From: Anoxynatronum buryatiense
Lineage (GTDB): Bacteria; Bacillota; Clostridia; Peptostreptococcales; Tindalliaceae
NCBI RefSeq assembly: GCF_900182905.1
Contig: NZ_FXUF01000022.1
Location: forward strand, 1 to 45,151
Reading direction: 5' to 3'
DNA: 45,151 bases
Shown here: in pieces, positions 3,263-9,637 of the stretch
Numbering within the stretch: position 1 is the first letter of the stretch
Layout of the letters: every line of letters begins with the position of its first letter
Translations under genes and position numbers: made by a program
Notes under the pieces: generated by a model
Told to the model about the DNA's origin: nothing
Database searches by the model: none
Seen by the model: only the letters and a program-made list of their open reading frames with translations

Positions 3263-3450
3263 TTACGGGTTAATCAGTTGTGCCTTTACCAGTAAGTTTC
3301 TGACAGCTGTCGCTGCTTCAGCATGGGTGAAAGTGTCTTTCGGATTAATGGTTTCCCCAGTCTTTCCGCTAAAGACTCCTATGCTAACCGTTTTTTTGAC
3401 AGCCTCATAAGCCCAGTCAGCCACTTGGTCTTTGTCTTTATCATTTTCAT
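3263..3450 (-). pseudogene. 3' fragment of an SLH surface-protein gene
   Basis: Positions 3264-3441 are nearly identical to 6542-6720, the last about 60 codons of the SLH protein at 6541-9570. The fragment ends in LLVKAQLINP and a stop. It has no start codon in frame: an in-frame TAA lies a few codons upstream. Directly upstream, 3448-3469 matches the promoter leader of the 13650-16448 gene (16569-16590). A deletion therefore joined one gene's leader to another gene's tail. Confidence 0.85.
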
Positions 3451-3589
3451 AGGTTAAGATTCTTTATAGGAGTTTCTCCGCCAAGAAACAGTTCGGATCA
3501 ACGTCTTGAAAAAACTGGATGATATTTGAGGTTTTTTGTTAGATACTTTGATGTAGGTTTACATGCAAATCCCCAAAACAAAAACACTT

Positions 3590-3599
3590 CCTGCACTGG
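3590..3599 (+). repeat. 10-bp direct repeat (target duplication) left of the IS
   Basis: CCTGCACTGG occurs here and at 5351-5360, exactly bordering the insertion element. It would form the loop and upper stem of the interrupted terminator. Confidence 0.75.
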
Positions 3600-3646
3600 A
3601 GGCCACTGAAAAAGAACCATTTTTTCAATAACAATATTAGCAAATC

Positions 3647-3700
3647 AAAACAGAGCATGAACTATGCAGGTTTTTCACTGAATAGTTCGTGCTCTGTTTA
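3647..3700 (-). terminator. Transposase terminator
   Basis: CAGAGCATGAACTAT (3651-3665) pairs with ATAGTTCGTGCTCTG (3682-3696) with one G-T pair. A TTTT tract follows in the minus direction. It lies just after the transposase stop codon. Confidence 0.8.
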
Positions 3701-3723
3701 TTAATTAGTCAGTTTTCTCTATA

Positions 3724-5172
3724 TTATTGTCCTATCAACTTGAGTATTCTTTTAATATTCACCGTGAAAATTGAGAGTGTCCCTTGCATCTGCATACCAA
3801 TTAAGCCCGAAGCTATTGCTACATCATACCCGTGCTGATGTTTTAGTTCGCTATTTTTTGCTTCAATCATATAGCGTTCTTTGGCTCGCTCTTTGAAGTA
3901 TTTTGTTTCTTCAAACGCCTTTTGCTCTTTGTGAAGGTCTGATTTAATTGATACAGAATAGGATTTAGAATGAGCTCCTTCTTTGTAACAGCCTTCACGA
4001 TTAGAACACCGCTTGCATATCTCAACATCGAAATAGTATGTGGTGACTTGATTTCTAATTTTCTTACCACCTCGTGCTTTTCTTATGGCCATATGGTCAG
4101 CTGGACAAACATAAAGTCCTGCATCTTTGTTAAATTCGAACTTATTGTGTTGCTTGCGTGCACCTTGCGAAATAACGGGATTGAGTTTTAAAATCAGTTT
4201 AATCTTATTCTCTCGGAAATAGTCCAAATTTCTTTTTTCAGAATAGGCTGCGTCTCCAATGACTTCCTCAATCGTCATGCCAGCTTGCTGGCTCTTCTCA
4301 ACCAGTGTTTGGAGTTCTTTTCCGTCGTTTTTTTCTCCTGTTGTAACTGTGGCACCGGTAATGATGCGTTCTTCACTCATCGCAAGATGTGTTTTATACC
4401 CAAAAGCAGTATCGGCTGTCTTGTGACCAGTACGAGCGTCTTCATCTTTTGAAAGTGCTAACTGTTCAAGGTTATCTGCAATAGCTTCATTTAGGTAATT
4501 CAATCGTTCCTGCACTTTTGCGAAAGCTGAAAGTTCAGGGATCATTTCTACAGTGTGTGTCAGTTTTTGACAGTACTCGATCACATCTTCAAGCAGTCCA
4601 CTACTAACCTTCTGGGGTAGCTTTTGTTTTAACTTTTCATCAACTCTGTAAACTTCTTTTCTCAATACTTTGGCACGTTCCAACAGCACCTCACGTGCAG
4701 ACTTTTGATTATACCTGGCCTTTGTATGGGTGGCGTCCACGATGATTGTCTTGCTCACCAATATGCCCCTCTCTTTGGCAATCGCAACAGTTTTCCCAAT
4801 CAGCAAATCTAATAGGTTCATATCTTTTAGGCGCAGTTTTCGAAACTTGGTCAACGAACTCGGGTCAATCAAGTCTGTGTCTTCGGGTGTCATATTCAAA
4901 AAGTACTTGAAGGACATGTCATAGAGGGAACGCTCAACAACATCGACGTCCGAAATTTCATAAATAATCTTCAATAGCAGATATTTGAACATCAAAATCG
5001 GGTCTTTAGCTCCGCGCCCCTGATCTAGACTGTAATTGACAAGTAGTTCATCATAAATGAATGAAAAATCTACAAGCTCATTAATTTGCCTAAGCAGATT
5101 ATCTTTGGGAATAATGAGATCATAAAGGTTCATGTATTGGCTTATCGTTAGTTGCTGAGGTCCTTTTATCAT
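3724..5172 (-). CDS. IS1182-family transposase
   Basis: A protein of 482 residues that fills the insertion sequence and should catalyse its transposition. The N-terminal region has the features of this family: YSLDQGRGAKDPILMFKYLLL and DPSSLTKFRKLRL. The DDE catalytic core includes IIVDATHTKARY, the VIGDAAYSEKRN block and a C-terminal YMIEAKNSELKHQHG segment. A Cys cluster near 385 (CKRCSNREGC) is also typical. AAGGAG lies 8 bases before the ATG. No frameshift or internal stop is seen, so the enzyme is probably active. Confidence 0.92.
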   Translation of the reverse strand: MIKGPQQLTISQYMNLYDLIIPKDNLLRQINELVDFSFIYDELLVNYSLDQGRGAKDPILMFKYLLLKIIYEISDVDVVERSLYDMSFKYFLNMTPEDTDLIDPSSLTKFRKLRLKDMNLLDLLIGKTVAIAKERGILVSKTIIVDATHTKARYNQKSAREVLLERAKVLRKEVYRVDEKLKQKLPQKVSSGLLEDVIEYCQKLTHTVEMIPELSAFAKVQERLNYLNEAIADNLEQLALSKDEDARTGHKTADTAFGYKTHLAMSEERIITGATVTTGEKNDGKELQTLVEKSQQAGMTIEEVIGDAAYSEKRNLDYFRENKIKLILKLNPVISQGARKQHNKFEFNKDAGLYVCPADHMAIRKARGGKKIRNQVTTYYFDVEICKRCSNREGCYKEGAHSKSYSVSIKSDLHKEQKAFEETKYFKERAKERYMIEAKNSELKHQHGYDVAIASGLIGMQMQGTLSIFTVNIKRILKLIGQ

Positions 5173-5293
5173 TAGTATGCTCCTTCAAATAGAAATGTTG
5201 TTCTTCCAATACTATTCGACAACAAAGCCTCATTTCCTTTTTGAAATACTGCTTTATTTAAATTATTTTTGCTGGCATATTAACAACAAGAAG

Positions 5294-5328
5294 AAGACCG
5301 TTATCACTTTTTTCATGATAACGGTCTT
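5294..5328. terminator. Read-through-blocking hairpin at the IS promoter end
   Basis: A perfect 13-bp stem: AAGACCGTTATCA (5294-5306) with TGATAACGGTCTT (5316-5328). It lies inside the element, upstream of the transposase. Such hairpins commonly shield transposase genes from outside transcription. Confidence 0.6.
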
Positions 5329-5350
5329 TAATGAGTTTTTCAGTGGCCTC

Positions 5351-5360
5351 CCTGCACTGG
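5351..5360 (+). repeat. 10-bp direct repeat right of the IS
   Basis: Second copy of CCTGCACTGG. It continues into GGAAGTGTTTTTT, the right arm and tail of the terminator that the element split. Confidence 0.75.
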
Positions 5361-5511
5361 GAAGTGTTTTTTGTTGCGTTCGTCCACATTGTTTACTGAC
5401 TGGATTTTCAAAGAATGCACCCCCAAGGTAGAAACCAACGCTACCGCTGTGTGCGCTTGAATTGGGGCACATGGAGCAGTGATTTCAACAATCCTGCCCC
5501 TCTGGTAGCTA

Positions 5512-5787
5512 TCACCACCACGGCCACACCAAGTCTGCAGGGAAAGGGCACGGAGGAACGCCTGGCGCATTTCCCTCACATCCGCCGGCTACCTGGTCTA
5601 ATTCCGCTTCCGCCAACTCACTTTTGGGGTGCTTCGCAAAGAATTCTTCCATCTCCTGGGTTTCCTCTGCTGTCAAGGTCACACCAAAGGCTTGGACCAA
5701 CGAGAGTACTTCTTCTTTGGACAGACACTGAGCCATCTGCTGACATTGTTCCTTTGTAGCGGTTTGTAAAAAAACTTTTATTGACAT
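5512..5787 (-). CDS. Nif11-like leader (NHLP-type) RiPP precursor, orphan
   Basis: A precursor of 91 residues. The leader (about 69 residues) resembles the Nif11-like class, with STKEEVLSLVQAFGVT-like helices and the ending AEAELDQVAGG. The predicted core after Gly-Gly is 22 residues, rich in Pro, Cys and Trp, with two Cys and a PWW end. The start chosen is MSIKVFLQ because AAGGAG lies 9 bases before it; a longer frame upstream has no ribosome-binding site. No modification enzyme, peptidase-transporter or other maturation gene is in the window, so the type of modification cannot be assigned. The IS1182 element sits about 150 bases downstream, in what was probably this gene's terminator. Confidence 0.75.
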   Translation of the reverse strand: MSIKVFLQTATKEQCQQMAQCLSKEEVLSLVQAFGVTLTAEETQEMEEFFAKHPKSELAEAELDQVAGGCEGNAPGVPPCPFPADLVWPWW

Positions 5788-6038
5788 ACACCCACGCTCC
5801 TTATTAAAAGATCTTCTGTGCAACAAGTGCTTATAACCTACATTCCACGTCAATTAGTTAATTGCAATAAATTCGCTATTCTCCTGTAGTTTGCGAGGAT
5901 TTCAAGTAGCAACTTCTATATGCTAACATTTCATGTGCCCCCTTTCAACAACAACATTTTAAATGCGTGGTTATCTTGTGATAATGTCACCTAAAGGTTA
6001 CCTTGAGAAGATGTCACCTTCTGCGATAAACTACCATC

Positions 6039-6206: not shown

Positions 6207-6551
6207 ATCAACAATCATGAAGACGTCAGTAATCATGATGTGCGCAAACAGTATATTTCCTTCTCAGGCTACCTGGGCATTTTTTGCAATATGCTTCTTT
6301 TGCCGTGAAGTTAGCCCTGGGGCTGGTCATCAACAGCATCGCCGTGATCACCGATGCCTTTAATAACATGACAGACATCAGCTCGTCGGTGATTTCCATC
6401 ATCAGCGCCAAGATCTCCAATAACCCTCCCTGACGGCAATCACCACTACGGCCACGGCCGGGTGGAATTCATTGGTTCCCTTGTGGTGGACGCCATTCCC
6501 GCGGAAATGCCGGATACCACCCATATTGTGGACACCCACACTACGGGTTAA
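6207..6551 (+). pseudogene. Broken CDF-type cation efflux gene (N-terminal part)
   Basis: Pieces in three frames give HDVRKQYISFSGYLGIF, then VKLALGLVINSIAVITDAFNN with MTDISSSVISIISAKISN, then GNHHYGHGRVEFIGSLVV. These are the first transmembrane helices and the metal-site motifs (DAFNN, HYGHG) of cation diffusion facilitators. One base is lost near 6302 and one gained near 6430. The rest is missing: the frame runs into unrelated sequence and the end of the SLH gene. Confidence 0.85.
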
Positions 6552-9500
6552 TCAGTTGTGCCTTTACCAGTAAGTTTCTGACAGCTGTCGCTGCTTCAGC
6601 ATGGGTGAAAGTGTCTTTCGGATTAATGGTTTCCCCAGTCTTTCTGCTAAAGACTCCTATGCTAACCGTTTTTTTGACAGCCTCATAAGCCCAGTCAGCC
6701 ACTTGGTCTTTGTCTTTATACTTCTCTATGCGCTTGTTATCTGCTTCTTTTAGACCGACTATCTCCATGGCTCTTGCATACATGCTCATGGCTTCTTCTC
6801 TGGTGATTTGATCATTAGGTTTAAACGTTCTGTCCGGGTAGCCAGAAATGAGTCCATATTCTGTTGCAACTGTTATGGCGTTGAAAAGTTTGTCCTCTTT
6901 GCTGACATCGGTGAATTTAGTGGTTGTTATTTCATCGGTTCTATAGATTCCCAGCGCTTTTGTGATGTATTGTGCAAACTCGCCTCGGGTAATTGGTTGA
7001 TCTGGCTCAAAGGTATTTGGGTTTGATATGATCAGTCTGGCGGCCATGTCGTTAACAGGCACCTTTGACCAATGGTTTTCGACTGCCGCCACCGTTATCG
7101 GGTTCCCGATTAGTGTATAGATTGAATTTGTAAGGGAACTAATTCTTGCATACCACTTGCCGTCCTTTTCAAATACGACTGTTGGTACGTGGCTGTATGA
7201 ACCGTCTGCATGAAAGACAATGCCTGTGGCAACCTTACTTGGGTCAATGTCTTCTGGAATTCCCATTATTCGTTCTGCAAAATGGCTAAACTGATTGATT
7301 TTAACTTCTTGTACCTTGCCATCTGCAGACGTTGCCCTTGCTGTGATTTCAAATTGCACCGGATCAAACAGGATTTCATGACCGGATGCTGTTGCTTGCT
7401 CTTTTAGTGCTTCAGCCTGGGCAGCCGGTATTTTGTTGATGCTAATTTCCACGTCAATGGACTGTAAGCTGTCCAACGAGATTCCCATGGTTTGGGCTAT
7501 TTTTTCAATGGTAAAGTTTGCAGAGTCTATGCGATACTCAATCTTTTCTTCTCTCACGGAAAGTGTAACATTATGATCTTCCATCTTTTTAAGGATATCA
7601 CCGGTTAGCACGACTTTGATTATATCGCCTGTGTTTGTCACCGGTATGATGACTTCGTTGGTACCATTGTTTTCTTTAATGGCGTTTTCAAGATGATTTT
7701 TCATCTGCTGAGAATCCACGACCAATTTGATTTCTGTTCGCCCATCTATTTCGGTTCTGGTTTCTGTCCCTGATTTTTGTGTTTCATTATTGACAATAAT
7801 TGTTATGTCCTTTGATGCTGATGGTGTGGCAGGTGGCCGGGGTGAGGATGAACCAGAGCCGCCGCCTCCTGTTGACGGTGCTGTATATGTGGGTATTGTT
7901 ATCGTAATACTTGGGCTTGCGTGAAAGCCAACTTTGGCTCTATAACGTACATTGTAGGTTCCTGCTGATAATCCTGTGATTTCTGTTCCTGTTACTTCAA
8001 GCCATGTACTGCTTGCATGTAGCTTGTATTCCATGGTCGTCGTTGTCCCTGTTATTTTGCCATCATTATTGGCTGTGGATGTAGGGGCGATGCCTGCCAG
8101 TCCCGTTGGAGGAGCTTGTTCATCGTTAACGATGGGCGGGTTAGCTGCATTCTCTACGTCATCAAAGGCTGCTAATCCAGCACCTGCAATAACAAAATCT
8201 GTGGATGGTTCTGTTAAAGGACTTGTCAAATGCTGTTGGTAATGACCATCTGTTTTAACCTGATAGCTTGTGTCGGCCGGTACTGTAACAGCAATGCTTT
8301 GATAAGCTCTGGTTGGCGAAAAGCTGGTCATTGGATTAAAAACGTCTTTAACATGAATGTGTGTAGGCGTTCCTGCAGGTTTCTGCCCTGAGAGATTTGC
8401 CATAAACATCGCTGCTGTACTTGCAGCTTCAATATCGTCCGATAATGTATGAATAGCTGGATTCGATACAGTCTCTGAAGCTGCTTTCACTGTTGCAGCT
8501 GCATTTATGGTGATGGTGCCGCCTGCGCCACCAATTCCACCACCGATGCCTGCGCCCTGCCCTCCACTTGTGGCTGTTACTGTTCCACCTTCTATGGTGA
8601 TGTCTCCACCTGCTCCACTATCGCCACCACCAATGCCTGCGCCCATATCTCCACCTGTGGCTGTCACCGTTCCACCTTCTATGGTGACGGAGCCGCCTGC
8701 TCCATTATACCCACCACCAATGCCTGCGCCCATATCTCCACCTGTGGCTGTCACCGTTCCACCTTCTATGGTGACGGAGCCGCCTGCTTGCCAAGCGCCA
8801 CCACCGATGCCTGCACCGCCAGCCTCCCCTGTTGCTGTTACTGTTCCACCTTCTATGGTGGTGGTACCACCTACGCCACTAATTCCACCACCAATCCCTG
8901 CACCACTACTTCCACCTCTCGCTGTCACTGTTCCACCTTCTATGGTGATGTCTCCACCTGCTCCATTATACCCACCACCAATGCCTGCGCCCATATCTCC
9001 ACCTGTGGCTGTTATGTCTCCACCTTCTATGGTGATGTCTCCACCTGCTCCACTATCGCCACCACCAATGCCTGCGCCTTGTGATCCACCTTGCGCATTA
9101 AGAGAACCGGTTCCATTTATCGTAACTGTATTTCCACTGCTCACCTGCAAACCTGCCATTAATGCCCCACTTTTAAGGATGTTGGCACCTTCCAAAGTAA
9201 GTGTCCCATCTGCATTATTTTTCAATTCAAAGGCAGCCCCACTTGATTGAATATTAACATTCTGAATGGCAATCTTCGCCTTAACACCATCCACAAGAAC
9301 CCTGTTGGCTGTGGTGGTACCAGTAATGACAAGTGTATCATTTTCATAAACATGCGCTGTCACACTTGGTGCGCCATGTGACACGACTATCATACCATCA
9401 TGTCCACCTGTTCCCGCCGTCATGGTTATGTCCCCTTCATTTATGTAAAAGGTATGTTCAGTAGAACTACTGCTGACAGTATCTGCATACGCCGGCAGTC

Positions 9501-9570
9501 CCACTGGTGCTGTCAGTGACAGCAGCATCGTCAGGATTATTACTAAACTTAACTTTTGCTTCATTTTCAT
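6541..9570 (-). CDS. SLH-anchored surface protein with seven 29-residue glycine-rich repeats
   Basis: A secreted protein of 1009 residues. It has a signal peptide (about 1-30), a region reading EGDITMTAG (about 40-160), and seven tandem 29-residue units of the form GAGIGGG..GAGG..TIEGGTVTATGG (about 165-365), probably a beta-solenoid. An Ig/FN3-like segment follows, then a Gly-Ser-Pro linker and a mid domain shared with the 16830-21143 protein (VNNETQKSGTET, LTNSIYTLIGN). Three SLH domains (about 825-1009, with ITRGEFAQYITKALG) anchor such proteins to the cell-wall polysaccharide. AAGGAG touches an ATG at 9579 but is 9 bases from the ATG at 9570, so the latter is taken. Expression should come from the promoter at 9638-9670. 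Confidence 0.88.
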   Translation of the reverse strand: MKMKQKLSLVIILTMLLSLTAPVGLPAYADTVSSSSTEHTFYINEGDITMTAGTGGHDGMIVVSHGAPSVTAHVYENDTLVITGTTTANRVLVDGVKAKIAIQNVNIQSSGAAFELKNNADGTLTLEGANILKSGALMAGLQVSSGNTVTINGTGSLNAQGGSQGAGIGGGDSGAGGDITIEGGDITATGGDMGAGIGGGYNGAGGDITIEGGTVTARGGSSGAGIGGGISGVGGTTTIEGGTVTATGEAGGAGIGGGAWQAGGSVTIEGGTVTATGGDMGAGIGGGYNGAGGSVTIEGGTVTATGGDMGAGIGGGDSGAGGDITIEGGTVTATSGGQGAGIGGGIGGAGGTITINAAATVKAASETVSNPAIHTLSDDIEAASTAAMFMANLSGQKPAGTPTHIHVKDVFNPMTSFSPTRAYQSIAVTVPADTSYQVKTDGHYQQHLTSPLTEPSTDFVIAGAGLAAFDDVENAANPPIVNDEQAPPTGLAGIAPTSTANNDGKITGTTTTMEYKLHASSTWLEVTGTEITGLSAGTYNVRYRAKVGFHASPSITITIPTYTAPSTGGGGSGSSSPRPPATPSASKDITIIVNNETQKSGTETRTEIDGRTEIKLVVDSQQMKNHLENAIKENNGTNEVIIPVTNTGDIIKVVLTGDILKKMEDHNVTLSVREEKIEYRIDSANFTIEKIAQTMGISLDSLQSIDVEISINKIPAAQAEALKEQATASGHEILFDPVQFEITARATSADGKVQEVKINQFSHFAERIMGIPEDIDPSKVATGIVFHADGSYSHVPTVVFEKDGKWYARISSLTNSIYTLIGNPITVAAVENHWSKVPVNDMAARLIISNPNTFEPDQPITRGEFAQYITKALGIYRTDEITTTKFTDVSKEDKLFNAITVATEYGLISGYPDRTFKPNDQITREEAMSMYARAMEIVGLKEADNKRIEKYKDKDQVADWAYEAVKKTVSIGVFSRKTGETINPKDTFTHAEAATAVRNLLVKAQLINP
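8500..9090 (-). repeat. 87-bp tandem repeats inside the surface-protein gene, about 7 copies
   Basis: Each unit encodes 29 residues. Several neighbouring copies are almost identical in DNA, which indicates recent homogenisation or slippage. Confidence 0.85.
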
Positions 9571-9637
9571 TTTTGTCATCTCCTTTTTACTTTAAAATCT
9601 TAGCATTTTCTATGGTACTATTGTGTAAGGCTTTTAT

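Follow-up and report, generated by a model that had tools for sequence, protein, structure and literature searches.

An IS1182-family insertion sequence in Anoxynatronum buryatiense splits a hairpin, and target choice in its clade probably follows hairpin-forming structure

An IS1182-family insertion sequence in Anoxynatronum buryatiense lies in the loop of a terminator-like hairpin, with one arm of the hairpin left on either side of the element. The DNA analysed (hereafter the window) is the 45,151-nucleotide stretch covering positions 1-45,151 of contig NZ_FXUF01000022.1, from a 4.16 Mb host assembly of 47 contigs. We conclude, with a probability of roughly 0.8, that this DDE element selects its targets by their inverted-repeat, hairpin-forming structure and splits the hairpin at the loop. 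At the level of sequence, the support consists of the split hairpin, the target duplication, locus-specific pairing beyond that given by the letter profile, the empty site of a relative (locus L123) and hairpins internal to the element.

The transposase gene (3724-5172, minus strand) encodes 482 residues with DUF772 and DDE_Tnp_1_6 domains. The protein scores 329 bits against NF033551, the NCBIfam model for IS1182 (cut-off 270), and exceeds the cut-offs of PF05598, PF13751 and PF01609, identifying it as an IS1182-family protein with a DDE domain. Residues D146, D307 and E437 are unvarying across 16 aligned transposases, and this candidate triad presumably provides the catalytic residues of the window transposase. 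No related solved structure was found at an E-value of 0.01, and no second copy of the element was found across the 47 contigs of the host assembly. Terminal inverted repeats matching at 16/16 bp (GGAGGCCACTGAAAAA) bracket the single open reading frame, an organisation in keeping with the family. They are located at 3598-3613 on the transposase 3' side and at 5336-5351 on the 5' side (both given on the plus strand), with the first base of the former and the last base of the latter also belonging to the duplication.

An earlier note on this DNA had placed the element at 3600-5350 between copies of a 10-bp loop repeat, CCTGCACTGG (3590-3599 and 5351-5360), which lies inside a 13-nt repeat family, D4. 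The relatives described below share the end consensus GAGG[C/G]CACTGAAAAA. Applying these symmetric GAGG...CCTC ends to the window copy retains the right end, moves the left end to 3599 and yields an element of 1752 bp (3599-5350, minus strand). The flanking duplication is likewise retained, with a length of 9 bp: CCTGCACTG, at 3590-3598 and again at 5351-5359, comprising the hairpin loop and the CC of the stem. The tenth base of the earlier repeat arose because GG/CC is common to the stem and the terminal repeats.

Outside the element, AAAAACACTTCC (3580-3591) and GGAAGTGTTTTT (5360-5371) are complementary, and lie within the left arm AACAAAAACACTTCC (3577-3591) and right arm GGAAGTGTTTTTTGTT (5360-5375) of the split hairpin. 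The reconstructed site with one copy of the duplication has a fold energy of -17.5 kcal/mol (z -3.24), which none of 200 dinucleotide shuffles equalled, and the hairpin axis is offset from the centre of the duplication by 1 nt. The order is A-tract, hairpin, T-tract, such that a GC-containing stem is followed by a T-tract in both directions, and the site is a putative intrinsic terminator. The arms, the loop copies, the fold and the NF033551 match together bear out the proposal of an IS1182 element in the loop of a terminator-like hairpin, and the T-runs described on either side of it are present.

The 3' end of a Nif11-like leader-peptide reading frame (5512-5853, minus strand, as listed; its true start is perhaps further in) faces the split hairpin from approximately 140-150 bp away. 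This upstream gene had been described as Nif11-type, and it does resemble the Nif11 leader model TIGR03798 (E 3.3e-6), but its 27.2 bits fall under the 32.3 cut-off; no Pfam match was found for it. A 178-bp stretch at 3264-3441 recurs at 6542-6719 with 99% identity, including an identical 39-bp core. This repeat is the 3' end of an SLH-domain gene (6541-9579), also present to the left of the element. The element and the Nif11-like reading frame thus sit between the SLH gene and a copy of that gene's 3' end.

The earlier note had suggested comparing empty sites in relatives. For the window itself none was found in 40 relatives, with right and left flanks searched separately; matching pieces of just 41-119 bp occurred in three of them. 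For L123, a copy on a Priestia plasmid, the comparison supports a hairpin that precedes insertion: 22 plasmid records align to at least 80% of the joined site at a single location, and each of the six plasmids inspected has one uninterrupted site with the hairpin retained (stem score 13.5-17). The L123 repeat GTAAAAAC is single in five of the six and carries one substitution in the sixth, while two of the stems are perfect and four contain a mismatch or wobble. A corresponding search with the left flank of L128 against plasmids returned only its own record and one 54% partial match.

Relatives of the window element (clade 1) were collected in a scan of genome contigs, from which the best 80 of 387, together with the window copy, gave 81 loci, a sample that leans to close relatives. 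Of the 81, 61 were complete at both ends with no less than 25 nt of flank on either side, and 20 were dropped. Exact duplications abut the ends in 48 of the 61, with lengths of 8 bp (28 copies), 9 bp (18) and 7 bp (2); the 13 copies lacking an exact duplication were excluded from the stem statistics.

These duplications bear on a different mode of insertion documented within the same family. As described in the accessible text of Furi et al. 2016 (PMC4923244) and of Wan et al. 2017 (PMC5678879), an inserting IS1272 or TnSha1 takes the place of the hairpin: the stem-loop is excised and no duplication arises. The window clade, in contrast, splits the hairpin and duplicates its centre. Given the family relationship, replacement might have been expected here too. 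However, neither arm has been lost from the window and the loop occurs there twice, so that the stem-loop is not gone and a duplication is present; replacement is refuted for the window copy by the retained arms, and with duplications flanking so many of the relatives it has next to no likelihood as a general account of the clade.

Pairing between the flanks was compared with that in swaps of right flanks between sites, which preserve the average letters at each position. The mean stem score over the 48 sites was 12.12, versus 5.77 (sd 0.27, maximum 6.70) in 500 swaps, and a score of at least 10 was reached at 31 of these sites compared with a swap mean of 2.98 and maximum of 7. Mean fold energy followed the same trend (-16.8 kcal/mol versus -8.7 in 40 swaps). 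These data can be set against the alternative that the transposase reads a palindromic consensus in duplex DNA via symmetric contacts, with hairpins as a by-product. Letters are indeed enriched 8-12 nt outside the duplication, with A on the left in 29-40 and T on the right in 29-38 of the 48 sites, as a consensus would predict. Yet the swaps retain this letter profile and lose half of the stem score, the stem letters vary between clade-1 sites, and in a second clade (see below) the duplication length tracks the hairpin over 17-35 bp. A pure sequence consensus is rejected by the swap control, and we regard the consensus explanation as a whole as improbable.

Selection of targets by structure is further supported by the position of the duplication. 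When the centre was allowed to shift by up to 8 nt, a stem score of at least 9 (a cut-off of our own choosing) was reached at 35 of the 48 sites; 200 flank swaps gave on average 5.3 such sites and never more than 11. The flanks of other copies, which the earlier note had proposed to collect, are therefore mostly non-random sequence. The duplication is centred exactly on the hairpin in 21 of the 35 (200 swaps: mean 1.3, maximum 6), and its even or odd length tracks the parity of the hairpin axis in 28 of the 35 (Fisher p 0.002). Four copies in Bacillus sp. FJAT-14578 (L057, L059, L061 and L062), 99.6-99.9% identical, split four different hairpins. The possibility that the hairpin is the element's own longer terminal repeat was rejected, as near-identical elements have different flanks.

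The hairpin is not universal. Thirteen of the 48 copies with exact duplications lack a stem scoring at least 9; L028, L031 and L033 come near the cut-off at 8-8.5, and L042, L055 and L070 have neither stem nor tracts. Among the 35, the stem is off-centre by 6.5 nt in L041, 3 nt in L036 and 2.5 nt in L048. Additional copies gave mixed results: L083, L117 and L119 have 9-bp duplications and stem scores of 4-4.5, L116 (the same locus as L046) scores 6.5, L120 scores 12.5 and L118 lacks usable ends, while the plasmid copies L121 (15.5) and L123 (14.0) are strong and L122 (6.0) is weak. Hairpins are therefore strongly preferred, not required. Furthermore, the clade-1 duplication is constant at 7-9 bp while the loops fitted at the 35 sites span 3-11 nt, and for this reason the description of the loop as duplicated is only approximate.

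Some copies have unusual flanks. In L079, the sequences outside the two ends are inverted and almost identical over about 40 nt or more and a direct duplication is absent. In L053 some 90 nt at one end of the element recur, inverted and nearly unchanged, at the other; inversion or nesting is perhaps the origin of both arrangements. The identical elements L005 and L006 of Bacillus dakarensis have a common left flank and differing right flanks, pointing to either recombination of the copies or a join introduced by assembly.

Gene context was scored at the 44 sites that had 1 kb or more of flank, using reading frames of at least 100 residues. Forty of the 44 sites are located outside reading frames (27% for random positions), and 23 lie within 120 bp downstream of a stop (random 7%); the window site is not among these 23. 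Such a distribution could arise if insertion were random and selection spared only the copies at harmless gene ends. This would not, however, produce duplications centred exactly on the hairpin axis, nor clade-2 duplications equal to the hairpin; selection alone is rejected by the centring, and we attach very little weight to it.

A further alternative is that a termination event (a paused polymerase, an RNA hairpin or an R-loop) or the bend of the A/T tracts is recognised, as opposed to a DNA hairpin. An A-tract, hairpin and T-tract occur together at 28 of the 48 sites, a further seven have the two tracts but lack a strong stem, and many sites directly follow genes, all of which would suit recognition of termination or bending. 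Against it, L026 and L063 are hairpins without A/T tracts, as L120 also appears to be by eye, and the palindrome at L058 overlaps the end of an IS3-type transposase reading frame (rve_2, E 9e-17). On balance we consider it unlikely. Similar palindromes (GATGAC.CCTGT...ACAGG..TCATC) are found at L012, L016, L045, L048, L058 and L074, some visible from one side only; palindromes of the L058 type are a recurring transposon-in-transposon target. Because of the tractless sites and the L058 palindrome in the IS3-type reading frame, the target looks like a hairpin, with terminators as the commonest kind. The proposal of terminator targeting thus holds in that most copies are at such sites, but the target appears to be the hairpin and not the terminator as such. 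That most copies are at intrinsic terminators would follow from terminators being common hairpin structures between genes.

The element itself carries hairpins inside both ends. That inside the transposase 5' end (5294-5328), which the earlier note had pointed out, is present with arms at 5294-5306 and 5316-5328 and folds at -18.8 kcal/mol on the plus and -19.8 kcal/mol on the minus strand (z -5.6 and -6.5). A second, inside the transposase 3' end (3648-3699), folds at -31.5 and -26 kcal/mol respectively (z -7.5 and -6.6). A scan with a terminator consensus reported only 5328-5294 on the minus strand, and one site is chance level (shuffle mean 2.0). Among the 61 elements, hairpins scoring at least 10 lie between terminal repeat and transposase gene on the left in 53, on the right in 53 and on both sides in 47, compared with 3% in mononucleotide shuffles; for the 52 distinct elements the figures are 45, 44 and 39, with approximately 2% in dinucleotide shuffles. 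Many of these hairpins are flanked by A-runs and T-runs. It had been suggested that the internal hairpin might replace the lost terminator, and the recurrence of hairpins inside both ends strengthens this proviso, with the role in termination itself a conjecture. The internal hairpins would probably stand in for the split host terminator, ending transcription that arrives from the host gene, and keep outside transcription out of the transposase.

A second IS1182 clade (clade 2), with ends like CAGACTGTAGACAAA and a transposase about 22% identical to that of the window, shares the hairpin targets and differs in duplicating the entire stem-loop, over 17-35 bp. An ISEfa7-annotated copy is 59% identical to the clade-2 copy L129. 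In genome G372 we examined 26 of 31 listed copies, the five omitted being the lowest-scoring and mostly partial; 25 of the 26 are flanked by 19-35 bp duplications that coincide with a hairpin to within 2 nt in every case, and in the remaining copy the hairpins to left and right differ. A broader collection of 34 loci, with a duplication threshold of at least 6 bp, includes 23 with duplications of 17-34 bp, every one containing a hairpin; of these 23, four (L164-L167) belong to the 26 from G372 as well. The other 11 of the 34 have no duplication, some being cut by contig ends, and include L142 with the same hairpin on both sides. Many clade-2 hairpin targets carry A/T tracts. Sequence recognition does not readily account for a duplication length that tracks the hairpin.

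Two G372 sites could be located in a sister species, with the hairpin present and the element absent at both. One matches the whole query; at the other (L213; G579, contig 26), about 240 bp of other DNA (approximately 7408-7648) separates the hairpin from the next matching stretch. Neither clade's pattern is clear in L126, L127 and the G709 copies. The window genome contains a remnant of a clade-2 transposase (L152, G000:C16:53897-54319), 62% identical to L129 over residues 302-442, and both clades have therefore been present in this host.

In the most likely mechanism, the transposon ends join symmetric points on a pair of DNA hairpins, near the loop in clade 1 and at the foot in clade 2. For clade 1, two joins 8 or 9 bp apart around the hairpin axis would place the element inside the loop, flanked on either side by a copy of the loop region and one stem arm. 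What the transposase would recognise is an extruded cruciform or a single-stranded DNA hairpin.

That IS1182 members target hairpins or terminators has been published before, for ISCbo5 and for IS1272/TnSha1. The account of ISCbo5, PMC3098183, is presumably that of Skarin et al. 2011. As far as its available text goes, all sites but one of ISCbo5/ISBma2 in Clostridium botulinum group III and C. novyi are hairpin-forming inverted repeats, exclusively at gene ends that are most likely transcription stop signals (PMC3098183). ISCbo5 is thus like the window element in family and in having hairpin targets at gene ends; the available text gives no position within the hairpin, duplication length, control or internal terminators. 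For IS1272 and TnSha1/TnSha2 in staphylococci, the accessible portions of PMC4923244 and PMC5678879 describe hairpin or inverted-repeat targets without a sequence consensus, some of them RNA-seq-confirmed terminators, and note that the possible targets of some older IS1272 copies are not inverted repeats. Among the hypothetical pathways in the accessible part of Wan et al. 2017 (PMC5678879), clade 1 looks like pathway c, in which the loop alone is duplicated, and clade 2 like pathway b, in which the whole stem-loop is. In the literature searched, with subscription papers, ISfinder and TnPedia outside our reach, we did not find the loop-centred 8/9 bp mode as an IS1182 finding, nor a duplication length that tracks the hairpin, a quantified dependence on structure or conserved internal hairpins at both ends.

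DDE transposases usually produce duplications of near-fixed length, determined by the enzyme. Within this single family, where the duplication lies (clade 1) and how long it is (clade 2) follow the target hairpin. We lean slightly towards the broader view that IS1182 transposases are general DNA-hairpin-directed integrases that recognise an extruded hairpin and have a clade-specific join point, close to the loop or at the foot of the stem. On this view the fold of the target, and not the geometry of the enzyme alone, would determine where the duplication falls and, for one clade, also its length, and the elements' own terminator hairpins at both ends would make insertion near neutral. The copies described here supply many natural examples for two pathways drawn as hypothetical in the accessible part of Wan et al. 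(PMC5678879), and how a transposase reads DNA shape becomes directly testable. Targets at gene ends, together with the terminator-like hairpins that the elements carry, may explain how these elements reach high copy number with little harm.
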